64,000 nt of DNA from Iamia majanohamensis. Its GTDB lineage: Bacteria; Actinomycetota; Acidimicrobiia; Acidimicrobiales; Iamiaceae. Positions within the stretch are counted from its first letter, which is position 1. The number at the start of each line of letters is the position of its first letter. Where the stretch lies: the NCBI RefSeq assembly GCF_028532485.1, contig NZ_CP116942.1, positions 3,596,001 through 3,660,000 of the forward strand. The letters are read 5' to 3'. Positions 38,021-49,288 of the stretch are shown one piece after another. Made by a program: the position numbers and the translations under genes. Below the pieces are notes generated by a model, which was not told where the DNA came from, made no database searches, and saw nothing but the letters and a program-made list of their open reading frames with translations.

Positions 38021-38730
38021 CGGGGTGGGCCCGGTCCCACGTCCCTGACGCCGAGGGCGCCCGGTCCGGAGCGGAAGGCCACGTCGAAGGTGCACGCCGA
38101 GCCGACCAGGTCGCGAGGGGTCGGGGTGGGGGCGGCGTCGGCCCGGCCGGCGGCGGCGATCCGCGCCAGGGCGGGGACCGCGGTCGCGGCGACGGCGTCG
38201 GGGTGGCTCAGCTCGCGCAGGTCCGTGAGCAGGCCGCGGACGTGCTCCATGTCCTCGTGCATGGTGGCCACCGCCGCGGCCACCTCGGCCGGCTGGTGGA
38301 TGGCCCCGTCCTCGAGGGCCTCGGCCGTGGCCTGGAGGCGGGCGAGGGGCGTGCGCAGGTCGTCGGACACCCAGGCCACCAGGTCGCGCCGGCTCTCGGC
38401 GAGGGTCGTCGAGCGCTCGCCCTCGGAGGGGGACCGCCGGGCGCGGTGGAGCAGGTAGGTGGTGGCCACGGCCACGAGGACGCCGACGGCGGCGCCGACG
38501 ACGGCCACGGGGAGGGCGTTGCCGGGGGCCACGTGGCCCCCGAGGGCCAGCACCACGGTGAGCAGGATCCCGACGCCGGCCACGGCGAGGGGGGCGACGA
38601 GGGGCGTGCGGTCGTGCCGCGTGCGCTCGTTCTCGGTCAACGTGGGCTCCTCGGGGCTGGGCCGTCCATCGGTGGTGGTTCGCTGCCGCGGCGGACCTGG
38701 CTCGGTCGAGGGCGCCAGCACGGTCTCCAT
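38017..38730 (-). CDS. Degenerate histidine-kinase-like membrane protein lacking the phospho-His and ATPase
   Basis: A 237-residue protein with two membrane helices (about 44-64 and 74-94) and a dimerisation/H-box helix reading LVAWVSDDLRTPLARLQATAEALEDG in segments. In active kinases the same place reads VSHDLRTPL; here residue 123 is Asp (GAC), not His. No N, G1 or G2 box follows and the protein ends about 85 residues later. It cannot autophosphorylate. As first gene of the molybdoenzyme operon (4-bp overlap) it may be a structural or sensing leftover. Confidence 0.7.
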   Translation of the reverse strand: METVLAPSTEPGPPRQRTTTDGRPSPEEPTLTENERTRHDRTPLVAPLAVAGVGILLTVVLALGGHVAPGNALPVAVVGAAVGVLVAVATTYLLHRARRSPSEGERSTTLAESRRDLVAWVSDDLRTPLARLQATAEALEDGAIHQPAEVAAAVATMHEDMEHVRGLLTDLRELSHPDAVAATAVPALARIAAAGRADAAPTPTPRDLVGSACTFDVAFRSGPGALGVRDVGPGPPR

Positions 38731-44315: not shown

Positions 44316-44795
44316 CTACCCGGGCGCCGGCGGGCCGTCGGGCTGGTCGGGGTGGTGGGTGCGCCAGGCCTGGAGCCAGTCGCGCACCACGGTGGCGAAG
44401 TGGGCCGGGTTGTAGACGTCCTCCTCGGAGGCCCACAGCCCGTCGCCGGCGTAGACGAGGCGGGTCCAGTTGGCCCCCTCGTAGACCTCGCCGTCGCCGG
44501 GGTCGACGAAGCGGTTCTCGACCTGGCCGACCAGCCAGCCCTGCTCGGCGTCGATGGTGTACCAGTCCCACGGGAACTCCCGCATGTGGCTGATGGGCCA
44601 CGGCGCCATGGTGTCGGTGATCCAGGCCAGCACCTCCTCGCGGCCGTGGAACTCGCCGTAGAGGTGCTCGACGTAGTGGACCTCCGGCACGAAGGTCTCG
44701 ACCCAGGGCCGCCAGTCGCCGGTGGCCCCGCCGTGGGCCGCCGCCGCGCAGTAGCGGGCGAAGGCCTCCTCCATCTCGCTGCGGTCGTGGGCCAC
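44316..44795 (-). CDS. SnoaL-like/NTF2-fold protein
   Basis: A 159-residue single-domain protein. An N-terminal helix EEAFARYCAAAAHG precedes WRPWVETFVPEVHYVEHLYGEFHGREEV in segments and a string of beta strands, the usual SnoaL/NTF2 cone. Such proteins are either small isomerases/hydratases or ligand-binding scaffolds. Convergent with the Coq4-like gene (18 bp between stops). Confidence 0.75.
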   Translation of the reverse strand: MAHDRSEMEEAFARYCAAAAHGGATGDWRPWVETFVPEVHYVEHLYGEFHGREEVLAWITDTMAPWPISHMREFPWDWYTIDAEQGWLVGQVENRFVDPGDGEVYEGANWTRLVYAGDGLWASEEDVYNPAHFATVVRDWLQAWRTHHPDQPDGPPAPG

Positions 44796-44944
44796 GGGAC
44801 CTCCTGGGGCTGCGGAGCCCGCAACCTAGGGTGCGTCGGGAACGGTCGCCGGGCCGGATCCGGCCGACCGATCGAGGACAACGCGCAGGAGGTGCGGCGA
44901 GGGATGGAGGCCGACGGCGACCCCCGCCGACGGAGCCGAGACGG

Positions 44945-45364
44945 GTGAGCGACGGGGCCCCCGCCACCGTCTGGCCCGTCCTGCACTACGCCGACACGGA
45001 GGGTGCCCTGACCTTCCTCGTCGACGTGCTGGGGTTCCGCGCCGTCCTGCTGGCACGGGACGACGACGCCCGGATCCAGCACGCCGAGCTGCGGTGGCCC
45101 GACGGAGGCACGGTGCTCTTCGGCTGGGCCGGCCACACCGATGGTGTCCACGGTGATGTCGGTCGAGGGACGGCCGCCATGTACGTCCCCACCACCGACG
45201 TCGACGCCGTCCACGGACGGCTGGTGACCTCGGGGAGGGGCACGGTGGTCGCCGGGCCCCACCGCACGACCTTCGGCTCCGGCGACGATGCGTACGCCCT
45301 CACCGTCTCCGACCCTGAGGGGCACCTGTGGACCTTCGGCACCTACCGGGGGGCGCCGGGGTAG
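44945..45364 (+). CDS. VOC-family (glyoxalase/bleomycin-resistance) protein
   Basis: A 139-residue metalloenzyme-fold protein made of two beta-alpha-beta-beta-beta units. WPVLHYADTEGALTFLVDVLGFR starts the first unit and SDPEGHLWTFGTY ends the second, the pattern typical of the extradiol/glyoxalase superfamily. Possible metal ligands are His51-like, Glu and the C-terminal His/Asp. Function may be resistance or isomerisation. The GTG at 44945 gives the usual N-terminus; the extra frame to the left is intergenic. Confidence 0.8.
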   Translation: MSDGAPATVWPVLHYADTEGALTFLVDVLGFRAVLLARDDDARIQHAELRWPDGGTVLFGWAGHTDGVHGDVGRGTAAMYVPTTDVDAVHGRLVTSGRGTVVAGPHRTTFGSGDDAYALTVSDPEGHLWTFGTYRGAPG

Positions 45365-45428
45365 CGGCGGGCGCAGGCCTGCGCCCCAGATCGCCGGGGT
45401 CTCCGGGAGGGACGGGCGGCCGGCGGCC

Positions 45429-45755
45429 TCATCGCATCCCCTCCGCAGGGTTGTCGGCCGGGGGGAGCGGGGTGCCGCTCAGCCACCAGACCTCCAGGCG
45501 GTCGGCATCGCAGGACTCGCACAGCGACACCACCCGGATGGACACGATGGAGAGCTGGGTGCCCCTCGCCTTCTCCCACACGGCCTCGGGGACCGACACC
45601 ATCGCCTCGCCGCCACAGGCCGGGCAGCGGGGGCTGGGATCCCGGTCCCACGTGAGATCGCACGCCGAGCAGGTGATCCGGATCACCTCGCCCTGGCGCG
45701 TCCCGCTCAGGTGGTCGTCACTCCGACACCGGGGACAGACGAGCTCGTCTGCCAT
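45429..45755 (-). CDS. Small protein with two zinc ribbons
   Basis: A 108-residue protein with four Cys pairs: CPRC (7-10), CSAC (29-32), CPAC (44-47) and CESC (79-82). These can form two zinc ribbons. No catalytic part is present, so it is a likely nucleic-acid- or protein-binding adaptor. Its start is 40 bp from the palindromic operator of the divergent MerR gene, so it could be controlled by the same regulator. Confidence 0.65.
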   Translation of the reverse strand: MADELVCPRCRSDDHLSGTRQGEVIRITCSACDLTWDRDPSPRCPACGGEAMVSVPEAVWEKARGTQLSIVSIRVVSLCESCDADRLEVWWLSGTPLPPADNPAEGMR

Positions 45756-45790
45756 GGCAGGTCCTCCGAGACCTCGAGGGCGCTCTCTGG

Positions 45791-45822
45791 TTGAGATCCT
45801 ACCCTCACGTGAGGGTAGGATC
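45791..45822 (+). promoter_or_regulatory. MerR-type promoter with 28-bp perfect palindrome
   Basis: A perfect palindrome spans 45795-45822: GATCCTACCCTCAC followed by its exact reverse complement. It sits between a -35 hexamer TTGAGA (45791-45796) and a -10 TAGGAT (45816-45821), with a 19-bp spacer. A spacer longer than 17 bp with a palindrome inside it is the classic layout for MerR activators, which untwist the DNA. The MerR gene begins 147 bp downstream of the palindrome. A shorter form of the same palindrome precedes sulP. Confidence 0.8.
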
Positions 45823-45968
45823 GACAGGTCAGCCTGCCTCGCGCCTGCTCACGCTCACCCTGGACGAGCAGGAGGATGTCCGCCGATCACCGGCAGGGCC
45901 GCGCCACCGCCCATTGCGTGCGCCCATCGGCGAGCATGGCGCGCCGGCCAGACCTCGGAGGACCACGG

Positions 45969-46382
45969 GTGAGCGACGAGCAGATGCACCAGATCGGCGA
46001 GGTGGCCGACACCGTCGGCCTCTCCCTGCGCACGATCCGTCACTACGAAGAGGTCGATCTCGTGCCCCCGTCGGGGCGGACGGCAGGGGGGTTCCGCCTG
46101 TACACCGACGACGACATCGAGCGGCTCCGGCTGGTCAAGCACATGAAGCCCCTCGACTTCTCCCTCGACGAGATGCGGACCGTGCTCGAGCTGCGCGACA
46201 CCCTCGCGGACGGCACCCCCGACGACTCGGTGCGAGAGCGACTGGTGATGTACGCCGCCCTGGCCGAGGAGCGCTGCCGGAACCTGCGAGCCCAGCTGGA
46301 GAACGCCGAGGCCATGGCGGCGATGCTCCGCCGCGAGGCCGGACGGCGACCCGCGACGGGACCGGCGCGACGGCGACGCTGA
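45969..46382 (+). CDS. MerR-family transcriptional regulator
   Basis: A 137-residue regulator. The winged helix-turn-helix reads MHQIGEVADTVGLSLRTIRHYEEVDLVPPSGR and GGFRLYTDDDIERL in segments, and a coiled-coil dimerisation helix runs from about 75 to the end. No cysteine pair or ligand pocket of the metal-sensing type is visible: the C-terminus is a plain Arg-rich coil. It is likely autoregulated through the palindrome at 45795-45822 and probably controls sulP, which has the same half-sites. The inducer is unknown. GTG at 45969. Confidence 0.85.
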   Translation: MSDEQMHQIGEVADTVGLSLRTIRHYEEVDLVPPSGRTAGGFRLYTDDDIERLRLVKHMKPLDFSLDEMRTVLELRDTLADGTPDDSVRERLVMYAALAEERCRNLRAQLENAEAMAAMLRREAGRRPATGPARRRR

Positions 46383-46553
46383 TGCAGGACGAGCGGGCCC
46401 GCACCCTCCCCCCCGATCGAGCCCTCCACATGCCCGACGGCATCCTCGACCACGTGACGAGCCGATGCTCGACCTCGTCGAGCTGAGGTCGTCGCGGATC
46501 ACGAGCGCGCGCAGATCTGCAGATCAGCAGGTGGTCCGCCGCACCAGAGCTGC

Positions 46554-48053
46554 TCAGTGCGACGAGGTCAGGTGGCCCGTGACCCGACCATGGAGCTCCG
46601 CGCTGTGGACGTTGAGGCCGACGAGGGTGGCGTCGATGCCGTGGGCGGTGAGCTTGGCGACCACGGCATCGAGGGCGGCCACGGCGGAGGTGTCCCAGAT
46701 GTGGGCGTCGGTGAGGTCGATGACCACGTCGTCGACATCGTCGGTGTAGTCGAAGAGGTGCAGCAGCTCGTTGGTGGAGGCGAAGAAGAGCTCACCGGTG
46801 ACGTGGTAGATGCGGGTGCGACCGTCGGCGGGGTCGATGACGCTGGTGACGTCGGCGACGTGGGCGACGCGCCGGGCGAAGAACACGGCGGCGAGCAGGA
46901 CACCGCCCGCCACGCCGAGCGCCAGGTTGTGGGTGGCGACGGTGATGGCCACGGTGACGACCATGACGGCTGTCTCGGTGCGGGGGGTCCGCCGGAGCTG
47001 GGCGGGCTTGATGCTGTTCCAGTCGAAGGTGCCGACGGCCACGAGGATCATCACCGCGACCAGGGCCGCCATGGGGATGGCGGCCACCAGATCACCGAAG
47101 GCGAGGATCGCGACGAGCAGGAAGACCCCGGCGGCGAGGGTGGAGAGCCGGGTGCGGGCACCGGCCTTCACGTTGATCATCGTCTGGCCGATCATGGCGC
47201 ACCCGGCCATGCCGCCCAGGAAGCCGGTGGCCACGTTGGCGATGCCCTGGCCCCGCGACTCGCGCTCCTTGTCCGAGCGGGTGTCGGTGATGTCGTCGAC
47301 CAGCTGGGCGGTCAGGAGGGACTCGAGCAGGCCCACGACGGCAAGGGTGAAGGCATAGGGAGCGATGATGGTGAGCGTCTCGAGGGTGAAGGGCACCCCG
47401 GGCAGCCCGAAGCTCGGCAGCGAGTCGGGCAGGTCGCCCATGTCGCCGACCGTCGGGACCTCGACGCCGAGGACCGCAGCGCCGACGCCGAGGACCGCGA
47501 TGGCCACGAGCGGCGCCGGGATCGCAGTGGTGAGGCGGGGGAGGCCGACCATGATGGCGATGCCGAGGGCGACCATCACGTACACCGCGGCGCTGATGCC
47601 GATGAAGTGGTCGAGCTGGGCCATGAAGATCAGGATCGCCAGGGCGTTGACGAAGCCGATCATCACTGTGCGAGGCACGAACCGCATGAGGCGGCCGACG
47701 CCCAGGGCGCCGAAGGCGACCTGGATGATCCCGGCCAGGATCGTGGCGACGAACAGGTACTCGACGCCGTGCTCCTTGACCAGCGACACCACTACGAGCG
47801 CCATGGCGCCGGTCGCGGCCGAGATCATGGCGGGGCGTCCGCCGGCGAAGGCGATGATGATGGCGATGGAGAACGAGGCGTAGAGCCCCACCTTCGGGTC
47901 GACCCCGGCGATGATCGAGAAGGAGATGGCCTCCGGGATGAGGGCGAGGGCCACGACCACGCCGGCGAGGAGGTCGACGCGCACGTTCGAGAACCAGGTC
48001 TGTCGGATGCGCTGGAGCGGTGCGCGAGAGGGCACGGGGGCGGTCGTCTGCAA
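46554..48053 (-). CDS. SulP-family anion transporter with STAS domain
   Basis: A 499-residue SLC26/SulP protein. About 390 residues hold the 14 membrane segments ([20 protein letters not shown] in the first helix pair, [19 protein letters not shown] near the substrate site), followed by a C-terminal STAS domain from about 405 ([17 protein letters not shown] and [17 protein letters not shown]). Substrates in bacteria include sulfate, bicarbonate and C4-dicarboxylates; specificity cannot be read here. It is controlled, I infer, by the MerR protein encoded nearby. 5' untranslated leader is about 130 nt. Confidence 0.9.
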
Positions 48054-48185
48054 GAGGGGTGCTTTCCGGTCGACGGGCGCGCACGTCGCACCCGGTTCGT
48101 CGTAGGAGGTGAGCCCTGCGGCATCGCGTCCACGGTGGCGGGCGGTGGTCGCCCGGCCCGCTGAGGGCCTCGCCAGGACCGGGTG

Positions 48186-48215
48186 ACCGTACCCTCACGT
48201 GAGGGAAGGGTGCAA
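48186..48215 (-). promoter_or_regulatory. sulP promoter with MerR-like palindrome
   Basis: Read on the minus strand, TTGCAC (48210-48215) and TACGGT (48186-48191) are separated by 18 bp that contain CCCTCACGTGAGGG (48192-48205), identical to the centre of the merR palindrome. The extended arms are less perfect than at merR. The layout again suits a MerR-type activator. Confidence 0.75.
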
Positions 48216-48264
48216 CGTGACATGGGCGACAGCGCCGCCAGAGCGGGCCGGGCCGCGGCTCGGA

Positions 48265-49167
48265 TCAGGTCCGCACCTGCGAGGGCTCGGTCGCACCGGC
48301 GGTGTGGTCGACGATCTCCGCCGCGAAGGTCGGCCACAGGGACCGGGGGAGGTCGTGGCCCATGCCCGAGAACCCCATGAGCCGGGCTCCCGGGATGGTC
48401 CGGGCCAGGGCCACACCTCCGCTCGTCCCCACCAGCGGGTCGGCCAGGCCGTGGACCACGAGGGTGGGCGCGGTGACCGCCCGCAGGTCGGCGGTGCGGT
48501 CGGGCTGGGCCAGGATGGCGGCCAGCTGGCGGCGGTAGCCGTCGGGGTCGTAGCCCCGGTCGTAGCTGTGTCCGGCCAGCTCCCGCACCCGGCCCTCGTC
48601 GAAGGGGTGGCCCGGCGAGCCGATCAGCCGGAAGATCTCCACCGTCTGCTCGACGGCCTCGTCGCGGGTCGCGGCCGGGTCGCGCCGGATCCGCGCCAGC
48701 CGCCCGAGGACCCGGGGGTGCGGTCGCCCCACGCGCCTGCGGCCGGTCGAGGTCATGATCAACGTGAGCGTGCGCACCCGGTCGGGGTGGTCGATGGTGA
48801 CCGTCTGGGCGATGAACCCGCCGAGGGACGCGCCCACCAGGTGGACGGCGTCGAGGCCGAGGGCGTCGAGCAGGCCCACCACGTCGCCGGCCATGTCGGA
48901 CAGCCCGTAGGGCGGACGTCGGCCGGGGAGGAGGTCGAGCACCGAGGGCGTCCCCAGCTCCGAGAGGTGGGTCGACTCGCCCACGTCGCGGTTGTCGAAG
49001 CGGACGACGAACCGCCCCGCGTCGGCGACCTGCGCGCACAGCTCGTCGGGCCAGCCGATCCGCTGCGTGCCCAGGCCCATCACCAGCACGATCGGGGGGT
49101 CGTCGGCGCTCCCGAAGGTCTCGTAGGCGATGTCGATCCCGTTGGCCCGGGCCACGCTCGCGGTCAT
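48265..49167 (-). CDS. Alpha/beta hydrolase
   Basis: A 300-residue esterase/lipase-fold enzyme. The nucleophile elbow is VGASLGG, the oxyanion region DNRDVGEST follows the first strands, the acid is in VHGLADPLV, and the base His lies in FSGMGHDLP. The sequence is like the aclacinomycin methylesterase/haloalkane-type hydrolases; the substrate is unknown. There is no signal peptide. Next genes in both directions are separated by more than 100 bp. Confidence 0.85.
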   Translation of the reverse strand: MTASVARANGIDIAYETFGSADDPPIVLVMGLGTQRIGWPDELCAQVADAGRFVVRFDNRDVGESTHLSELGTPSVLDLLPGRRPPYGLSDMAGDVVGLLDALGLDAVHLVGASLGGFIAQTVTIDHPDRVRTLTLIMTSTGRRRVGRPHPRVLGRLARIRRDPAATRDEAVEQTVEIFRLIGSPGHPFDEGRVRELAGHSYDRGYDPDGYRRQLAAILAQPDRTADLRAVTAPTLVVHGLADPLVGTSGGVALARTIPGARLMGFSGMGHDLPRSLWPTFAAEIVDHTAGATEPSQVRT

Positions 49168-49288
49168 CGTCGTCCTCCGTCGGTGTCGTGCGCCCGGGGT
49201 GCCGGCCGCGCTCCCCAGGATGGCGTGGGTCGACCGGGCCGGGCCACACCTCGGGGCTGCCGGGGCGGCGGGAGGGCCCGGGCCGCGG

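Follow-up and report, generated by a model that had tools for sequence, protein, structure and literature searches.

A conserved palindromic operator at merR and sulP promoters of actinobacteria, probably the target of a MerR-type regulator

Locus architecture

The locus described here raises two questions: whether a MerR-type regulator and the convergent gene for a SulP transporter are governed through one and the same operator, and to what kind of signal such a circuit would respond. On comparative grounds we assign a probability of about 0.72 to a conserved actinobacterial regulon, in which MerR would act on the operator CTACCCTNACGTNAGGGTAG at both the merR and the sulP promoters, the signal being probably one of stress.

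Within the window (the whole 64-kb stretch of DNA that was analysed) the region between merR and the divergent zinc-ribbon gene contains a perfect 28-bp palindrome (GATCCTACCCTCACGTGAGGGTAGGATC; Table 1), which is the longest perfect palindrome of the window and whose 20-bp core (45799-45818) has 0 mismatches to the family consensus. A chance origin can be ruled out, given that only about 0.005 palindromes of at least 28 bp are expected per 64 kb at the composition of the window, and that the motif is conserved in relatives (see below). The second longest perfect palindrome (CGGGGGCCACGTGGCCCCCG, 38523-38542) spans 20 bp. The original prediction had placed the palindrome in a 19-bp-spacer promoter before merR and its core in an 18-bp-spacer promoter before sulP, and both arrangements were recovered (TTGAGA-19 bp-TAGGAT on the plus strand and TTGCAC-18 bp-TACGGT on the minus strand), the exactly shared stretch (TACCCTCACGTGAGGG) being of 16 bp and not of 14 bp. 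The zinc-ribbon gene, which had been assigned to the first promoter region, does lie divergently from it, with a mirrored TAGGAT available; its product scores barely over the cut-off of Pfam DUF6300, and some relatives have homologues that adjoin merR/sulP or lie under the operator.

Table 1. Coordinates of genes, operators and proposed promoter elements (positions within the window)
Feature	Position	Strand	Remarks
Zinc-ribbon protein gene	45429..45755	-	108 aa, four CxxC pairs; divergent from merR
Proposed -35 of merR promoter	45791..45796	+	TTGAGA; 19-bp spacer
merR operator	45795..45822	.	perfect 28-bp palindrome between merR and divergent zinc-ribbon gene
Mirrored -10, candidate for zinc-ribbon gene	45796..45801	-	TAGGAT; minus-strand sequence of palindrome
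Proposed -10 of merR promoter	45816..45821	+	TAGGAT; overlaps operator edge
merR	45969..46382	+	137 aa, GTG start (45969) chosen from relatives
sulP	46554..48053	-	499 aa, TTG start, convergent with merR; SLC26 family with STAS domain
Proposed -10 of sulP promoter	48186..48191	-	TACGGT (TAnnnT); overlaps operator edge
sulP operator	48189..48208	.	GTACCCTCACGTGAGGGAAG, 2 mismatches to consensus
Proposed -35 of sulP promoter	48210..48215	-	TTGCAC; 18-bp spacer

To the left of the zinc-ribbon gene (44319-45361) lie a SnoaL-like gene (slightly under the Pfam cut-off) and a glyoxalase-family gene, and two terminator-like hairpins (0.3 expected) were found on the minus strand within the sulP reading frame (46888-46913).

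Occurrence in the own genome and family

In the 4,576,919-base genome the exact 14-bp core CCCTCACGTGAGGG occurs twice, in both cases at the merR/sulP locus (reversed pattern: 0), so that the scan suggested by the original prediction returned the merR and sulP sites only; the exact 14-mer was absent from the 60 other genomes searched. With up to 2 mismatches the 14-mer becomes unspecific (25 places in the own genome, as compared to 13 for the control), while the 20-bp consensus at up to 3 mismatches is found at 3 places (control: 0). The third of these (G000 857807, 3 mismatches) was placed within a coding frame by the frame-bias script and was taken as chance. MerR itself (E<=1e-22) was recovered from 5 of the 99 genomes around the window's own (the latter counted), and from none of the 3 other genus members and 20 other family members searched, which makes the distribution of the locus patchy; it may have been transferred between lineages.

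Regulator and transporter

The MerR protein is recognized by Pfam (PF13411: 63.4 bits, cut-off 21.6; PF00376 and PF09278 also over cut-off), and remains under the cut-off of every listed NCBIfam model, its best profile matches being CadR-PbrR, ZntR and CueR (best metal-sensor score 66.8 vs a cut-off of 151.45 bits). The AlphaFold monomer model (38 sequences, mean pLDDT 92.5) predicts a winged helix-turn-helix followed by a single 40-residue helix (86-125) and a loose tail, with no sensor domain seen. Foldseek matched this model to MtaN, CadR, CueR and HiNmlR (TM-scores of about 0.5-0.7), the structure of the last being titled ‘lacking the sensor domain’. As for the earlier statement that the protein has no metal-binding cysteines, it holds for the C-terminal metal loop, whose cysteine pair is absent, and not for the protein as a whole, in which one cysteine (Cys103) is present in the long helix; 31 of 38 close relatives share this residue, while in a wider set of 21 sequences it is retained in 9 and replaced in 12, mostly by V, L, I or A.

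Known members of the family resemble this regulator in part. HiNmlR and HspR, which belong to the MerR family without a sensor domain, consist only of the winged helix and a coiled-coil helix, an arrangement that the monomer model of our protein, with its single long helix, resembles, whereas the scores of our protein against the NmlR and HspR models (46.2 vs 175 and 45.6 vs 105 bits, respectively) and its targets set it apart. CueR, CadR, PbrR and ZntR share its predicted fold, its size and the long spacers of its proposed promoters; in contrast to them, it is devoid of the metal-loop cysteines, falls far under their cut-offs and has the operator centre approximately 4 bp nearer to the -10. 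The left half-sites of TipA, Mta and SkgA (CCTCACGT, CCTAACGT and CCTCACGC, from an excerpt of PMC7762955) resemble CCTNACGT of the operator described here, although by our count their centre follows the -35 at a distance of approximately 7-8 bp and the two halves of the tipA site are separated by 5 bp more than here, and although TipA-class proteins possess a drug-binding domain that is absent here. Since the model contains neither a sensor domain nor a metal loop, we consider that the switch is likeliest to operate through a protein partner or the tail, rather than through metal. HspR, GlnR and TnrA provide precedents for switching of this type.

The transporter exceeds the Pfam cut-offs for PF00916 (Sulfate_transp, 198.4 bits) and PF01740 (STAS, 39 bits), and stays below those of the NCBIfam sulP subfamily TIGR00815 (sulfate permease, 289.3 vs 380.45 bits) and of the BicA model (169 vs 880 bits). 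Its closest counterpart by sequence likeness is SLC26Dg of Deinococcus geothermalis (5da0, 5iof), a member of the SLC26/SulP family to which it aligns over residues 10-494 with 580 bits (5da0), as compared to 128 bits for BicA (6ki1), a much more distant member of the same family. Bicarbonate and sulfate, which had been put forward as inducers, thereby lose any special support; in view of the fumarate transport reported for SLC26Dg in proteoliposomes (excerpt of PMC6497670), a dicarboxylate is the better first guess for the substrate, as far as sequence likeness can guide it.

Operator conservation across actinobacteria

A protein search (E<=1e-15) recovered MerR relatives in 37 of the 296 genomes of the phylum. 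The 20 best MerR loci outside the own genome (taken as stretches of 6-11 kb) harbored a site similar to CTACCCTNACGTNAGGGTAG at up to 4 mismatches in 19 cases and at up to 3 in 17, and at nine MerR loci of more distant relation (38-43% identity), each covered over 2.5-3.4 kb, no site was found at up to 4 mismatches. A site search across the 296 genomes (up to 2 mismatches) returned 17 sites in 16 genomes, 14 of which have them at merR loci (in one case 3 kb from merR) and two elsewhere (G231 and G103). As the reversed control returned 10 sites in 8 genomes, it is the location beside merR, and not mere presence, that carries evidence, and an isolated site means little.

The scan of named genomes covered the best 80 of at least 577 loci (these are loci and not genomes, two strains giving two each), with neighbour genes being called by a simple frame-bias script that renders starts and small genes approximate. 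All 80 bear actinobacterial titles (Acidimicrobiia, Streptomyces, Isoptericola, Prauserella, Saccharopolyspora, Micromonospora and others), and several of the host organisms are halotolerant by name, which brought up salt stress as a conceivable signal. At up to 3 mismatches, 62 of these 80 loci contained 105 sites, while the reversed pattern was found 0 times in 0.9 Mb. sulP was present in 54 loci, release factor 3 (RF3) in 34, both in 20 and neither in 12; loci with sulP nearly always had a site (51/54), those in which RF3 was seen without sulP had one in half of the cases (7/14), and those with neither gene in a third (4/12). The 18 loci without a site at this threshold thus include 7 of the RF3-only group and 8 of the group with neither. 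The arrangement of merR, zinc-ribbon gene and sulP recurs in the order of the window in G338, whose best site has 3 mismatches, and in G383, with sites at 2 and 4 mismatches. The original prediction had made its case depend on the palindrome being conserved near sulP in relatives: many actinobacteria do retain it next to merR and sulP.

The tie between operator and regulator is best seen at the sulP genes themselves. The SulP search of the 296 genomes gave 25 loci in 24 genomes (E<=1e-110), and all 15 loci with a MerR within 1.5 kb have the site (0-4 mismatches), as compared to none of the 10 without, where the best match has 6-7 mismatches, a level equal to that of the reversed control (15/15 against 0/10, Fisher p 3e-7). 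One of these ten (L206) begins at a contig end, with its upstream DNA absent, and dropping it leaves the outcome at 15/15 vs 0/9 (p ~8e-7). Nine of the ten belong to genomes without any MerR match, and the remaining one is an additional copy of sulP in G109. We take this distribution to mean that the operator tracks MerR and not the transporter, and the comparative evidence as a whole supports the proposed MerR-sulP regulon with a shared operator. Two of the MerR-free loci retain other members of the set beside sulP (RF3 in G110, the zinc-ribbon gene in G282), which suggests a functional link that is independent of the regulator. In G110 (L246:1732-5089) sulP and RF3 are divergent neighbours, with neither an operator nor a MerR of this clade found beside them.

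Promoter anatomy

For the promoter analyses the sites of the relatives were oriented by the downstream gene, and duplicate site sequences were removed for the promoter counts. The 27 sulP-only sites gave the consensus CcAACTCT.CCCTcACGTgAGGGTAGaGTt, and a TAnnnT motif lies over the right edge of the operator in 66 of 69 unique sulP-directed sites (the window site being counted). Among 41 unique divergent merR/sulP regions, 40 have this motif against the operator edge that faces sulP, and 1 has it at the edge that faces merR (Fisher p 8e-21, a guide only, as the rows are related sequences), from which we conclude that what is conserved in those genomes is the function of the operator at the sulP promoter. 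Comparison thus establishes, at the level of aligned sites, an operator that is conserved, tied to MerR and associated with a putative sulP-directed -10.

The -35 is less uniform. TTG at a 19-bp spacer was observed in 6 of 68 merR-directed and 4 of 13 RF3-directed sites, with 0-2 cases at any other offset; in the sulP-directed set it is rare (1/69 at 19 bp and 1/69 at 18 bp) and the -35 is poorly conserved, although at the 18-bp spacer 25 of the 69 sites have a triplet with at most one change from TTG (TTA not counted). The merR-directed sites with a unique best -35 box (n=18) place it at 19 bp in 11 cases and at 17 bp in 4. The window spacers (19 bp for merR and 18 bp for sulP) fit this pattern; measured against the 19-20-bp spacer rule of the MerR family, the merR promoter conforms and the sulP one is one base pair short, both promoters being predicted from sequence. 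A generic sigma-70 scan, which admits only 16-18-bp spacers and strict hexamers, found no promoter there.

The position of the operator within the spacer is unusual. Its dyad is separated from the -35 box by 12 bp in the merR promoter and by 11 bp in the sulP promoter, and from the -10 box by 7 bp in each, and so departs from the classical MerR activator geometry, in which the operator centre lies 7-8 bp from the -35: such a distance is given for metal-sensing MerR proteins in an excerpt of PMC5045206, and about 7-8 bp was also obtained by our own count on the tipA, mta and skgA oligonucleotides (sequences from PMC7762955). By these measures the operator appears to be displaced by approximately 4 bp towards the -10 relative to classical MerR promoters.

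Wider targets in relatives

Targets were defined by sites at up to 3 mismatches; most genes were assigned by BLAST to a representative, with single representatives being checked against family libraries, and, some loci being present twice, duplicate site sequences were removed for the unique-site counts (they were kept in the other target lists). Where a site lies between divergent genes the assignment to one side is not certain. Sites precede RF3 in 13 genomes (13 sites, one representative over the RF3 cut-offs), HelD (7 unique; an incomplete representative reaches 418 bits against the HelD_BACSU cut-off of 419), DUF2795-like genes (9 unique; representative under the Pfam cut-off, 20.4 vs 25) and zinc-ribbon genes (6 unique plus the window); others were found before phosphofructokinase (3, one representative checked against family libraries), RNase J (3) and a spermidine-synthase-like protein (3, no Pfam match), none of which enters into the argument. 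Furthermore, in 16 of the best 80 named loci a merR relative is followed by RF3 within 300 bp on the same strand (e.g. L071, L074, L075, L078 and L121), which is a linkage separate from that with sulP. RF3 was considered as a member of the window's own regulon and rejected: it is encoded elsewhere in the genome (G000:C1:18286-19824), where the best site has 6 mismatches, and the wider target set consequently rests on the relatives and not on this genome.

Proposed mechanism and rival explanations

In the mechanism that we favour, a MerR dimer would bind CTACCCTNACGTNAGGGTAG at its own promoter (common here to the zinc-ribbon gene) and at the sulP promoter. In both, the operator occupies most of the long spacer between the proposed -35 and -10 and overlaps the first bases of the TAnnnT -10. 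One state of the protein would keep the promoters shut, and the other would bend the DNA in such a way that the polymerase could use the 18-19-bp spacer. The long helix or the C-terminal tail would most likely mediate the switching, probably by means of a protein partner and not of metal, on the pattern of HspR or of NmlR proteins devoid of a sensor; the product placed under control would be an SLC26Dg-like anion transporter. As sites precede RF3, HelD, DUF2795-like and zinc-ribbon genes in relatives, the likely signal is a physiological stress under which translation and transcription stall. Binding by MerR, the direction of control, the partner, the signal and the substrate are the elements that we infer. 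Activation by MerR is plausible, being favoured by the long spacers and weakened by the non-classical position of the operator.

That same position makes plain repression possible, and either activation by distortion or repression by covering the -10, or both, may apply. A MerR acting as nothing but a repressor on the -10 of the merR, zinc-ribbon and sulP promoters, released by a signal or partner and indifferent to the spacer, is a genuine contender, whose chances we place somewhat below even. It would account for a palindrome that overlaps the first -10 bases with its centre 7 bp away (closer than in classical MerR promoters, as described above) and for the weakly conserved -35 boxes of the sulP-directed set, and it has company in CvkR, a MerR-type repressor according to the title of a published paper, and in HspR, which is named a repressor in the profile table. 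A repressor, however, requires no particular spacing, and the recurrence of the 18-19-bp spacers in relatives (TTG at 19 bp before merR and RF3; the best -35 box at 19 bp in 11/18) therefore counts against it. Sensing of metal or redox state in the manner of CueR, CadR or SoxR we regard as very unlikely: the ranking of CadR-PbrR, ZntR and CueR among the profile matches, the retention of Cys103 in close relatives and the zinc-ribbon gene in the promoter region are in its favour, but the metal-sensor scores lie far under cut-off, the metal-loop pair is missing, Cys103 is replaced in 12 of 21 members of the wider set, and the targets seen include no metal pumps. It is most improbable that another factor binds the palindrome, or that it acts as a DNA or RNA structure, with MerR being a mere neighbour. 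The half-sites are indeed unusual for a MerR site, as they stand ~5 bp closer than in the tipA oligonucleotide (excerpt of PMC7762955); against this reading speak the strict co-occurrence of operator and MerR at SulP loci and the lack of sites at the nine distant MerR loci, and, for an RNA element, the lack of any Rfam match at the gathering threshold in 45000-49200 (sulP leader included).

Returning to the shared operator, its presence beside ribosome and RNA polymerase rescue genes in some actinobacteria points to an undescribed stress circuit. A more ambitious version, in which the sensor-less MerR would run a rescue regulon and, when translation and transcription stall, switch on RF3, HelD, the zinc-ribbon and the DUF2795-like proteins along with a dicarboxylate (or chloride) transporter of the SLC26 family by way of the -10-shifted geometry, is tentative and in this complete form rather unlikely. 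Limited open-access searches returned, among the matches listed, no paper on a MerR-SulP regulon, an absence that carries little weight. Taken together, these observations define for one MerR clade the operator, its targets and the organisms in which they occur, and bring a bacterial SLC26 transporter together with factors that rescue ribosomes and RNA polymerase under operators of one kind. Moreover, they make the role of these SLC26 proteins and the cue sensed by MerR testable in culturable Streptomyces, Isoptericola and Prauserella.

Site-rich genomes

Sixteen genomes, picked largely for loci rich in sites, were searched in full at up to 2 mismatches and gave 50 sites in 14 of the 16, often clustered, as compared to 1 control site. 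The draft genome G360 (Acidimicrobiia bacterium; L137 and L167) has ten operator-like sites at this threshold, and five of these share a single contig of 7,050 bases with two copies of merR. A single site at L036:8300 (1 mismatch), three kb from merR and RF3, precedes a gene that, judging from its sequence, is presumably nicotinate-phosphoribosyltransferase-like.
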